In this document: positions 11,348-37,820 of the stretch, piece by piece
Layout of the letters: each line of letters begins with the position of its first letter
How positions within the stretch are numbered: the stretch's first letter is position 1
Assembly: GCF_002886185.1 (NCBI RefSeq)
Contig: NZ_KZ614146.1
Coordinates: forward strand, 3,562,338-3,626,337
Direction of reading: 5' to 3'
Source: Salipaludibacillus neizhouensis
GTDB lineage: Bacteria; Bacillota; Bacilli; Bacillales; Salisediminibacteriaceae
Length of the DNA: 64,000 nt
The notes under the pieces: generated by a model
Databases searched by the model: none
What the model saw: the letters and a program-made list of their open reading frames with translations, nothing else
Told to the model about the DNA's origin: nothing
Translations under genes and position numbers: made by a program

Positions 11348-11455
11348 TAAGAAAAACGCGTAGCGTCTTTTATTAAATACAGCGTCAGCTTCCACCGCCA
11401 TCTTTTAAGTATCAAGGGTGGGTTTCCCTTGATACTTGCGGTGTGAAGGTAGCTG
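11348..11455 (+). repeat. Structured repeat, copy 1
   Basis: First of four copies (others at 16847, 21132, 37657). Hairpin P1 is ACGC-gta-GCGT followed by CTTTT. A conserved linker TATTAAATACAGCGT follows. Outer stem P2 joins CAGC/TTC/CACCGC with GCGGTG/GAA/GCTG. Inner hairpin P3 pairs AAGTATCAAGGG with CCCTTGATACTT. It sits 11 bp after the ykoP stop, in the 3' untranslated position. Confidence 0.85.
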
Positions 11456-11490
11456 CTAATTTTATAAATTCTTATCTTTTAAAAAAAGAA

Positions 11491-11519
11491 AAAAGCTGTT
11501 AAAGAATTTAACAGCTTTT
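11491..11519. terminator. Bidirectional terminator between ykoP and ykoQ
   Basis: AAAAGCTGTTAAA pairs with TTTAACAGCTTTT around a 3-base loop, with A/T runs on both sides. It serves the ykoQ-like gene on the minus strand. Confidence 0.8.
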
Positions 11520-11523
11520 CTCC

Positions 11524-12381
11524 TTAAATTGCTTCAACTACTTTTTTAACAGAGCCCGGCAATGAAAACTCATGAAATGTAATTTCCGGTCGGCTTCCAA
11601 CGCGGATATTAACGCCTGTTTGACCTAACCCTTCACTAATATAAAAGGATTTTCCACCTTGTATATGCAAGCCTTTTACAATATTCATTCTTGCGAGTTG
11701 CCCCATTTTTACTAGGTGATACGCTTTTGGATAGCAGATTTGCCCTCCATGAAAATGACCGGCAAGCAAATAATCAAAATGGTATTTATCCATGTGCAGT
11801 ACGATATTCGGATCATGGGTTAATACTAAGTTTATTCCTGATTTTATTCCATTATATGAAGCTGCAAGGTTGCTTCGCTTTGTACTAAAATCATCGATGC
11901 CAATAATATTAACGGGTTTTCCCTGAACAAAAATCATATCATTTTCGTTCTGTAAAACTTTGCAGTTATATTCTTCAAGCGTTTCTATTAATAGTTGTAA
12001 GTTTTGATTACGTAAAACATAATCATGGTTTCCCAAAACAGCGTAGATGCCATATCTTGCATTTAATTGGTTGAGTATTTTTAAATATGGAACTAGCTTA
12101 GGAATCGTTCTTTTACGGTCGAGGAAATCTCCAGTGAGTGCAATTAAGTCAATTGGTTCATCTTTTAATTTTTCAAAAAGCTCGGTAGGAGAAATAGAAA
12201 TATTTTCGAGATGTAAATCGGAAAGTTGTAGAATATTTATTTTAGGGATATGTCCATTGGACACTTCATTATTGATTTTAATTTTATGAATAATGATATC
12301 CTTCGTGTTTTTATAGGCTTTTATAATGAAATAAAAAGTAATAATGGCTAATACTATAAAGAACAATATCTTCAATGACAA
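11524..12381 (-). CDS. ykoQ: Calcineurin-like metallophosphoesterase, YkoQ type
   Basis: A 285-residue protein with an N-terminal hydrophobic anchor (about residues 2-20) and all metal-site blocks of the family: SDLHLE, LTGDFLDR, LGNHDY, LTHDP and AGHFHGGQI. These ligate the two-metal centre that cleaves phosphoesters. YkoQ/YaeI-like proteins are membrane-associated; the substrate is not known, though related enzymes act on lipid-linked phosphates. It is divergent from the glycosyltransferase at 12522, which may work in the same envelope pathway. Confidence 0.88.
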   Translation of the reverse strand: MSLKILFFIVLAIITFYFIIKAYKNTKDIIIHKIKINNEVSNGHIPKINILQLSDLHLENISISPTELFEKLKDEPIDLIALTGDFLDRKRTIPKLVPYLKILNQLNARYGIYAVLGNHDYVLRNQNLQLLIETLEEYNCKVLQNENDMIFVQGKPVNIIGIDDFSTKRSNLAASYNGIKSGINLVLTHDPNIVLHMDKYHFDYLLAGHFHGGQICYPKAYHLVKMGQLARMNIVKGLHIQGGKSFYISEGLGQTGVNIRVGSRPEITFHEFSLPGSVKKVVEAI

Positions 12382-16846: not shown

Positions 16847-16955
16847 TAAGAAAAACGGCATAGCCGTCTTTTATTAAATGCAGCGTCAGCTTCCACCGCC
16901 ATGTTTTAAGTATCAAGGAAGGGTTTCCCTTGATACGTGCGGTGTGAAGGTAGCT
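16847..16955 (+). repeat. Structured repeat, copy 2
   Basis: Same architecture as copy 1 with compensatory change in P1: ACGGC-ata-GCCGT instead of ACGC-gta-GCGT. P2 is CAGC/TTC/CACCGC with GCGGTG/GAA/GCT. P3 pairs GTATCAAGG with CCTTGATAC. It begins 2 bp after the gbsR stop. Confidence 0.85.
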
Positions 16956-17070
16956 TTATCTCTTGAAAAGAAGTTATCAGGTAGTCTTTTGAAAAAAACT
17001 ATTGACTACCTTCAATATAAATGTTTCACTTCTATCTTCTAAATAGGAGATGTTTAAGTTTTGTGTTATC

Positions 17071-18056: not shown

Positions 18057-18142
18057 AGACATAAGTAAATAGTTGAAATACAAAAAAAGCTGGTCCCTCA
18101 ATTGAACTGTAACCTATAAAATGGACAGTTTATAAAAGAGAC

Positions 18143-19090
18143 CTATGCAGCTAGTAAATGACTTCGGTATTGAGCCGGGGTCATTTTCTTTAATCCCCAC
18201 TGGTAACGATGACTATTATATTCTTCCATGTAGTCATCTACTTCTTGTCTTAATTGCATAAAGTTCTCGCATGCTTTGTGATCGACCATATCTTTGAAAT
18301 GACCAAAGAATGATTCCATTGGTGCGTTGTCCCAACAATTTCCCTTTCTTGACATAGATTGACGTACCCCTAATTTTTTCACTCTGTCCTGGAACTCTGG
18401 ATGAGTATAGTGAACCCCTTGATCAGAGTGGAGGATAGTCTCAGGGTGAAAGATACCCATCCCTTCCTTGAGGTTGTCTAATGTTTGATAAACAATATCC
18501 ATTTCTAATGACCTTGACAATTTATACGCTAAAATCTCTTTTGTAGCTCCATCTTTCACACAGGATAAATAGGCTTTTTGACCTCCCCTATAGTAAAGAT
18601 AAGTAATGTCAGTTAATAACACTTTACCAAATTCTTTTTGATCAAATTGACGTTTTAGTAAGTTCGGACATGTACGGTGTTCTTGTGTCGCCTTAAGCAT
18701 TATTCTATAAGGCTTCACCCGCCTAATTTTCGTTTCAAGGCTGAATTTTTTCATTAAGCGTCTGATTTTCTTATGATTCATCACGACACTGTGATCATTC
18801 TCTAATATCATTTTAATTTGAAGCGCCCCTACTTTTTGATTCTTTACGAAGAAAATATTTTTAATAAGTTCAACTTCTTGTGTATCCCTTGCTTCTCGGA
18901 CTTGACGGACGCCCTCTGCGCTTAACCAGGCGTAATAACCACTTTTACTTACTTCCGCTAACTGACACAGCTGGGTTACTTTTCCTTTTAATTGATGCTT
19001 TCTAATGATTTTTTCAATAAGTTCAAATTTCTCTGAAGGGGTTAATATTTCTTTTTCAACGCCTGCCTCTCTCGTTCTTCTAGCTTTTTT
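18143..19090 (-). CDS. IS3 transposase OrfB (expressed by -1 frameshift)
   Basis: The frame is open upstream of the first ATG (18811) as far as the slippery site. It encodes an HTH_21-like segment (QLCQLAEVSKSGYYAWL) and the rve integrase core with the DDE triad: TDITYLYY, LHSDQGVHYTH and the E of APMESFFGHFK. The end is LKKMTPAQYRSHLL. The functional product is an OrfAB fusion made by slipping on AAAAAAG at 19084-19090. Confidence 0.9.
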   Translation of the reverse strand, partial: KKARRTREAGVEKEILTPSEKFELIEKIIRKHQLKGKVTQLCQLAEVSKSGYYAWLSAEGVRQVREARDTQEVELIKNIFFVKNQKVGALQIKMILENDHSVVMNHKKIRRLMKKFSLETKIRRVKPYRIMLKATQEHRTCPNLLKRQFDQKEFGKVLLTDITYLYYRGGQKAYLSCVKDGATKEILAYKLSRSLEMDIVYQTLDNLKEGMGIFHPETILHSDQGVHYTHPEFQDRVKKLGVRQSMSRKGNCWDNAPMESFFGHFKDMVDHKACENFMQLRQEVDDYMEEYNSHRYQWGLKKMTPAQYRSHLLAA

Positions 19091-19476
19091 AAGAAGTCAT
19101 TCTCAGCTTCTAAATACTTGATCCTTGTTTCTGCTTTTTTAAGTTTTTCTTCGGCAGATAACGTTTTAGATGAGGGGCGACCAGAACTTCCTTTTCCTCT
19201 TCGCTCCGATTCGAATCCAACTTCACCAAACTGCTCAAACGTATCGCGCCAACGCCTTAAGCAACGTATTGGTTGATCTTTACCTATAACCTCAAGGTTA
19301 AATCCATTCTCTAGAAAGATCTGAGAAGGTCTTTTTCCTGTTTTATATTCTTGAACAGCCTTTACTTTAAAATATGGTTGGTAAGAGATCGATCGATCCG
19401 ACACACGTACAACATTCGGATTCTTCTCTAGTTCTTTCATTTGAAACTCTGAATATATGTTTTTACTCATGTCCAT
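19042..19476 (-). CDS. IS3 transposase OrfA
   Basis: 144 residues with a helix-turn-helix (AVQEYKTGKRPSQIFLENGF) and a C-terminal leucine-zipper-like coiled coil (KKAETRIKYLEAENDFLKKL). The A6G heptamer near its end (19084-19090) is in the zero frame as A-AAA-AAG, the standard site for -1 frameshifting into OrfB. Confidence 0.9.
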   Translation of the reverse strand: MDMSKNIYSEFQMKELEKNPNVVRVSDRSISYQPYFKVKAVQEYKTGKRPSQIFLENGFNLEVIGKDQPIRCLRRWRDTFEQFGEVGFESERRGKGSSGRPSSKTLSAEEKLKKAETRIKYLEAENDFLKKLEERERQALKKKY

Positions 19477-19610
19477 TCTCCGTTCTAATGATTTATTTTA
19501 TTATAAACGGGTTTATCTTATAAAAACATAAAAACCCGAATAATGAGGCACTTTTTTTAAGTGTCCATTATTCGGGTTACAGTTCAAATTTGGAGAGACC
19601 AGCTTTTTTT

Positions 19611-21131: not shown

Positions 21132-21270
21132 TAAGAAAAACGGCATAGCCGTCTTTTATTAAATACAGCGTGATCTTTAGCCACCCCCGAGTAGCACCTA
21201 CGTAGTGTGTGTAGGTGCTACTCGATAGGAGGTGGGGTTTCCCTTGGTACTTGTGGCGTAAAGATAGCTG
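21132..21270 (+). repeat. Structured repeat, copy 3, with remodelled inner hairpin
   Basis: P1 (ACGGC/GCCGT), the linker and P2 (ATCTTT and GCCAC with GTGGC and AAAGAT) are kept. The 5' arm of P3 is replaced by an unrelated 14-bp hairpin (21188-21201 with 21211-21224, CGAGTAGCACCTAC). The 3' arm CCCTTGGTACTT survives. It begins 10 bp after the opuAC stop. Confidence 0.85.
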
Positions 21271-21292
21271 TCAACTTACAGTTCTTAACTAT

Positions 21293-37656: not shown

Positions 37657-37763
37657 TAAGAAAAACGCGTAGCGTCTTTTATTAAATACAGCGTATCTTT
37701 CGCCACCATCATTTAAGTGTCAAGGGTGGTTTTCCCTTGATACGCGTGGCGTAAAGATAGCTG
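37657..37763 (+). repeat. Structured repeat, copy 4
   Basis: P1 is ACGC-gta-GCGT as in copy 1. P2 is changed on both sides: ATCTTT and CGCCAC pair with GTGGCG and AAAGAT, replacing CACCGC/GCGGTG. P3 pairs GTGTCAAGGG with CCCTTGATAC through a G-T wobble. No plus-strand gene precedes it. Confidence 0.85.
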
Positions 37764-37820
37764 TCATCTTATAAATTCTGTGAACAAAAAAGAAGCCTCT
37801 CAAAAGTTTATCTCTGTGTG

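Follow-up and report, generated by a model that had tools for sequence, protein, structure and literature searches.

Background

In IS608-type transposition, as set out in the available parts of PMC6006769, the hairpins are bound, a guide sequence lies 5′ to the hairpin foot, and the target flanks the left end. For IS605, the available parts of PMC7290912 describe ends-only elements that are mobilised in trans, and report a survey in which tnpA genes showed no strand preference (10 of 22 on the leading strand). REP and REPIN sequences are high-copy, intergenic, palindromic, non-coding repeats of about 20–65 nt with GT[AG]G at the hairpin foot, and are associated with RAYT genes. The bcr1 repeat of the Bacillus cereus group is a dispersed, structured, MITE-like repeat of ~150 bp; the accessible portions of the published descriptions link it to a TTTAT motif and call it group-specific. 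Group IIC introns insert behind terminator stem-loops, and lagging-strand DNA is usable by group II introns.

The repeat element of Salipaludibacillus neizhouensis described here resembles the IS200/IS605 elements (IS608, ISDra2) and the ends-only PATEs in its lagging-strand orientation, the absence of target duplication (at one site), its structured ends, a T-rich target adjoining the left end, and a hairpin, subterminal at the right end, that has a complementary stretch on the 5′ side of its foot. As to subterminal hairpins of 20–25 nt, the hairpin termed P1 fits at the right end and the left end is formed by a large P2/P3 structure alone; unlike IS608, the element has no small isolated hairpin on the left. 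It further differs from the IS200/IS605 family in that no tnpA gene or autonomous copy with its ends was found at 36 Y1 loci, that its target includes a hairpin, that most of it is one large covarying structure, and that it exceeds 100 copies in two genomes. With REP sequences and REPINs it shares high copy number, an intergenic, palindromic and non-coding nature and the presence of resident RAYT-like genes, but it is longer (about 118–165 nt), lacks GT[AG]G at the hairpin foot in our alignments and, unlike REPtrons, is not clustered at RAYT genes (0 of 36 Y1 loci). The likeness to bcr1 lies in size, dispersal and structure, as compared by description only. Group IIC introns share with it the insertion behind terminator stem-loops; in contrast to them, the element has no recognisable ribozyme domain and no reverse transcriptase (RT), and one high-copy genome gives no RT match. 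We recognised no description of the element in the open-access PMC literature, most subscription literature being outside the scope of the search, and none in the available parts of PMC3733652, PMC6542083, PMC3446304, PMC2267715, PMC6006769, PMC7290912 and PMC8266576.

Copies in the window and in the host genome

The window, that is, the whole 64-kb stretch of DNA that was analysed, contains four copies of the element, all on the + strand and where the initial annotation had placed them. A 20-base linker pattern matches four times in the 64 kb with up to 3 mismatches, compared to 0.02 matches expected. Copy 1 (11348..11479) belongs to a short class and runs from TAAG to TTCTTATCTTT; its P1 hairpin (11356..11366, + strand) has TAAGAAAA and TTTTATTA on its sides and consists of pairs that covary across genomes. 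Copy 2 (16847..16964) lacks part of the AT-rich tail, and copy 3 (21132..21292) represents a long class. Copy 4 (37657..37785) lies between two genes of the − strand with no same-strand stop codon ahead of it. The 3′ ends had originally been drawn too short, as the element extends to TTCTTATCTYTT where the tail is intact. Copies 1 and 4 have the P1 stem ACGC/GCGT, and copies 2 and 3 have ACGGC/GCCGT; the differences in P2 are likewise as first reported. An inner hairpin P3 had been ascribed to all four copies; copy 3 departs from this, its 5′ arm of P3 being swapped for a GAGTAGCACCTAC..GTAGGTGCTACTC hairpin. Copies 1–3 indeed start 11, 2 and 10 bp past the stops of upstream open reading frames (11336, 16844 and 21121). 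Pfam bears out the naming of the upstream genes of copies 1 and 3 as YkoP and OpuAC, and the frame called gbsR upstream of copy 2 gave no Pfam match.

The repeat is real, and the family is much larger than these four copies. A BLAST-type search of the host genome (5.51 Mb in 11 contigs) returned 46 matches, fragments counted. With a covariance model built from 32 copies (R1), all 150 scored candidates in this genome match, the weakest with E = 8e-12; since every candidate scored was a match, the genome has at least 150 copies. When up to 3 mismatches are allowed, the 5′ module is found at 238 places and not once in a reversed control; for the 3′ module the number of places is 75. Ninety of the 150 copies are short. 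The other 60 are longer than 145 nt: in 59 the GAGTAGCACCTAC..GTAGGTGCTACTC hairpin seen in copy 3, or one of its variants, is present, and one contains an internal duplication. Four pairs of copies stand end to end on the same strand with gaps of −9 to 1. In the fetched loci of this genome, 9 P1 motifs and 2 tails stand apart from the 150 copies. Some of them belong to additional full copies, others are fragments or P1 next to other intergenic sequence, and one is probably a chance match; in the two loci inspected no transposase was seen.

Structure and covariation

Copies found by the covariance search of related genomes allowed the stems to be compared across species. In an alignment of 28 sequences (26 distinct) from 5 genomes, changes on both sides were seen in 20 of 27 pairs, and 94.3% of cells were paired compared to 84.0% after shuffling. 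A larger alignment, with 39 sequences from 8 genomes and the Alkalihalobacillus deserti loci described below, showed changes on both sides in 26 of 27 pairs and 94.0% of cells paired, compared to 68.4% shuffled; its covariation score was 0.70, against 0.23 shuffled and no more than 0.14 in any slid register. Fitting to the model gave both alignments a bias towards the structure; it is nevertheless an insufficient explanation for the covariation because of the slid controls and because some stems have wholly different sequences (for example in the genomes G010 and G084). The initial claim that pairing is selected, made from four copies, is thus strongly supported.

Among the host-genome rows of a further alignment (83 rows, with the six of other genomes dropped), G–U pairs number 29 and A–C mismatches 17 (23 and 17 with one poorly paired column removed). 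As G–U pairs are not clearly in excess over A–C, the counts mark neither strand as a conserved RNA. This fits a fold of DNA, or a fold needed for movement alone. The window has no match to any Rfam family at gathering score. At permissive E-values every match was far below its gathering score; RF02998 (IS605-orfB-II RNA), which has a weak full-length match to copy 1, reached 23.9 bits where its gathering score is 88, and was rejected.

Distribution in other genomes

R1 found no match in seven congeners, among 84 or 96 scored of some 2,100–2,900 first-look candidates in each. A BLAST-type search of one of them (G007) gave a single partial match of 33 bp, inside the hairpin of copy 3. In the family, 5 of 35 genomes match, counting the host itself, and a genome of another genus (G045) does so heavily. 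Across the order, 5 of 397 genomes, again including the host, match, with 8 candidates scored per genome; absence in this wider search consequently carries little weight. A second model (R2), with 150 candidates scored in each of seven other carriers, matched at least 111 times in G045, 79 in G010, 48 in G084 and 12 in G075, and at least twice in each of G008 and G050 and once in G371. In a search of contigs, the exact core had no match and a broader pattern matched two loci, both of A. deserti, which may coincide with one of the searched genomes. Plasmid and phage records gave no match. High numbers in some species, with none seen in congeners, are the pattern expected of a mobile element.

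Head-to-tail arrays with a spacing of ~145–158 bp occur in G010 (contig C1), with five copies at 695046–695769 and four at 3023238–3023867.

Orientation relative to replication

The copies show a strong orientation bias with respect to replication. On contig C1 of the host genome, which contains 94 of the 150 copies, 83 run against the fork (p = 8e-15), fork direction being taken from the GC skew of the flanks, which changes sign near 1.9 Mb. On all contigs together, among copies with flank skew beyond 0.05, those on the + strand lie in 13 positive and 46 negative contexts and those on the − strand in 57 and 3, respectively (p = 2e-17). All 8 copies located between two genes that face the fork keep the against-fork orientation, and so do 33 of 40 when convergent, divergent and fork-facing sites are pooled (p = 4e-5), so gene direction alone does not explain the strand bias.

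The same relationship is seen in other carriers. In G010, 59 of the 60 copies among the matches listed (of 79) are on the − strand before 2.3 Mb and on the + strand after it, a boundary chosen with the data known; with tandems collapsed, 39 of 40 agree with the switch. Twelve skew samples taken later are positive to 2.05 Mb, approximately zero at 2.44 Mb and negative from 2.83 Mb. For G045, 74 of the 79 chromosomal copies among the matches listed (of 111) agree with 20 skew samples, and both strand flips coincide with skew flips; all 11 places entered for G084 (of 48 matched) agree with 8 skew samples. In all four cases the orientation is against the fork, and therefore the complement of the annotated strand is in the lagging-strand template. 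A preference for terminators would by itself yield some strand bias, because most genes run with the fork. The copies could serve as a fossil record of replication direction, with 59 of the 60 listed in one chromosome facing the same way to the fork.

Insertion target and gene ends

The target is described here on the complement of the annotated strand, that is, on the lagging-strand template. The left end adjoins a terminator-like hairpin and T-tract in 85 of the 150 copies, compared to 10 of 150 with shuffled flanks and to 16, 15, 16, 11, 17 and 16 of 150 in controls shifted by 15 to 100 nt; at the opposite end, on the annotated strand, the same test is passed by 19 of 150. The 65 copies that fail include three of the four in the window, although copy 3 still has a hairpin right at its end. 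Copy 1 passes, and its end is adjoined by the T-tract of the terminator-like hairpin (11491..11519, − strand) of the opposite gene (11524–12381, −). A looser, uncontrolled scan for a hairpin and T-tract in other genomes was positive for 16 of 29 copies.

Sixty of the 150 copies offered an anchor for the left end (the other 90 were dropped), and they give the junction consensus TTTTnTTA just ahead of ARAGATAAGAA; the frequencies are T 0.68, 0.78, 0.90 and 0.82, n, T 0.95, T 0.77 and A 0.65, and the last eight letters on the element's side are largely set by the anchor. The right end is exactly TTTTCTTA in 118 of the 150 copies, which were anchored on TTTTCTTA itself. Target and right end thus have one common layout, a hairpin plus TTTTnTTA. 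Read along the template strand, the hairpin–TTTTnTTA target is followed by the element, which consists of ARAGATAAGAA, the AT-rich left end, the large P2/P3 structure, TAATAAAA, the P1 hairpin and the terminal TTTTCTTA. The TAATAAAA stretch, located 5′ of P1 on this strand, is largely complementary to TTTTCTTA.

The initial annotation left a choice between a 3′-UTR RNA element, a mobile palindrome element, or both. By neighbour calls from a simple ORF script, 70 of the 150 copies are antisense to both neighbours and 67 have a same-strand gene upstream, which in 41 of the 67 ends −3 to 12 nt from the element. A cis-acting 3′-UTR RNA, acting as terminator or stability element and kept in place for the benefit of neighbouring genes, would suit these 41 copies, the strongly covarying structure, and P1, which looks like a small two-way terminator. 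As the main reading it is nevertheless very improbable, given the antisense copies, an orientation that tracks replication rather than genes, the lack of a clear G–U excess on either strand, and the lack of matches among the candidates scored in congeners and at the orthologous site of copy 2. The nearness to gene ends looks like a by-product of target choice, because insertion behind a terminator puts the other end of the element at the stop of the convergent neighbour. This would explain how repeats can collect near the ends of genes while having no function in the mRNA. The alternative of a mobile palindrome has gained support from the many copies, the patchy occurrence, the strand bias and an empty site.

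The first bases of the element, TAA, provide the stop codon of the upstream gene in 18 of 67 copies; a less frequent situation, seen in 4 cases, is a stop in either of the other frames within 30 nt of the element's start.

Empty sites

In the congener G005 the element is absent from the site orthologous to copy 2 and nothing stands there instead; the upstream gene is 91% and the next gene 82% identical. G007, G003 and G002 likewise lack the element. This is the one clean empty site; it shows no target duplication, and its target is TTTTTC rather than the full TTTTnTTA. Comparison with ~800 kb of G005 yielded eight other candidate sites; the seven of these that were aligned contain no element that we recognised, and they are too diverged to place the junction.

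The missing target duplication bears on the possibility that the element is a MITE of a DDE insertion sequence. To our knowledge, DDE elements would not be expected to keep to one strand in 59 of 60 cases, and internal stems that covary are unnecessary for such an element. We therefore give this explanation little credence, even though the ends TAAGAA...TTCTTA are complementary and form a 6-bp inverted repeat, and although bcr1-type MITEs are dispersed in Bacillus genomes according to the available parts of PMC6542083 and PMC3446304.

Candidate enzymes

Y1 transposase genes are present in 26 of the 35 family genomes regardless of carriage, and so the presence of Y1 or RAYT genes does not discriminate between carriers and non-carriers. 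At 36 fetched Y1 loci, a subset of the listed Y1 matches with flanks of up to 1.5 kb, there was no R1 or R2 match and no transposase gene flanked by the element's ends. The host genome has two intact Y1 genes, which match the REP-associated tyrosine transposase family with 78.1 and 67.1 bits, below the cut-off of 80, and one of which has its own GTAG-type repeat array alongside. These genes raise the question of whether the element could be a REP of a resident RAYT (TnpA-REP), moved by one of the two proteins. One of them adjoins a GTAGGTGCTAC array, and the 11-mer of this array is found again in the hairpin of the long class, which would speak for this relationship; the element is larger than REPs, shows no GTAG at the 5′ foot of a hairpin and is missing from the 36 Y1 loci examined, which makes the proposal doubtful. 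G045 and G010 also have RAYT-like proteins (loci L205 and L209).

The array just mentioned is at 609–1067 of locus L033 (contig C2 of the host), beside a RAYT-like gene of 202–204 aa. It is a tandem array of five 91-bp copies with palindromes GTAGGTGCTAC..GTAGCACCTAC. The additional hairpin that marks the long class, for example at 21191–21221 of the window, is formed by the same 11-mer with its arms in the other order.

Matches to RVT_1 (RT) number 9 in the host genome, 11 in G010 and 9 in G084. Both these enzymes and the combination of target class and strand preference, which resembles that of group IIC introns, would be in line with an RNA-based, SINE-like element whose copying is done by a group II intron or another RT. 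However, G045 holds at least 111 copies and gives no RVT_1 match, which makes a reverse-transcriptase route unlikely. With no intron domain recognised, no Rfam match at gathering score and no clear G–U excess on either strand, we regard the SINE-like origin as improbable.

Proposed mechanism

We are highly confident that the element is a real mobile DNA element, and it is likely that its insertion at terminator-like hairpins is coupled to replication. The reading that best accommodates the data, to which we assign a probability of about 0.6, is that of a non-autonomous, IS200/IS605-like single-strand element that uses the lagging-strand template and joins behind hairpin–TTTTnTTA. At replication forks the element would move in single-stranded form, within the lagging-strand template, with a candidate IS200/IS605-like (HUH Y1) enzyme acting in trans; this kind of enzyme is our best guess, at slightly better than even odds, and an IS608-type enzyme is suggested by analogy. 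Joining is predicted to take place behind hairpins followed by TTTTnTTA. Because the right end (hairpin and TTTTCTTA) is laid out like the target, this single rule could produce both the insertion behind intrinsic terminators and the head-to-tail tandems. TAAnAAAA beside P1 may act as a guide by pairing with TTTTnTTA at the sites of cleavage, and the exact junction base is one that we infer. We do not assign the element to the IS200/IS605 family, because no Y1 gene associated with its ends was found at the 36 loci examined.

A more tentative proposal, which we hold possible with the odds somewhat against it, is that the element represents a new class of single-strand elements in Bacillales, in which the right end is a mimic of a terminator, the enzyme recognises a DNA hairpin followed by TTTTnTTA in the lagging-strand template, and the large covarying DNA fold is the handle for the enzyme. 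If true, the intrinsic terminators of leading-strand genes and the existing copies would all be landing sites. Non-coding repeats of Firmicutes are often unexplained; here the orientation, the target and the architecture give a testable mechanism, and offer a search route to a new or repurposed single-strand transposase.

Other repeated sequences

Two other observations concern further sequences of the host genome. Pieces of an IS3-like transposase (rve and HTH domains) lie at 18102–19607 of the window, and the outer ~0.4 kb on each side are 98–100% identical to sequences at two other places in the genome, where they are closer together. On contig C1 of the host, P1-like hairpins adjoin a different intergenic sequence with ACCGCYCSCTTTCCGTGRATGAT (locus L171, ~1440–1681, and locus L075, ~2440–2581). 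The ACCGCYCSCTTTCCGTGRATGAT-containing sequence may belong to a second repeat family, one that either abuts the P1 end or has it in common with the element.
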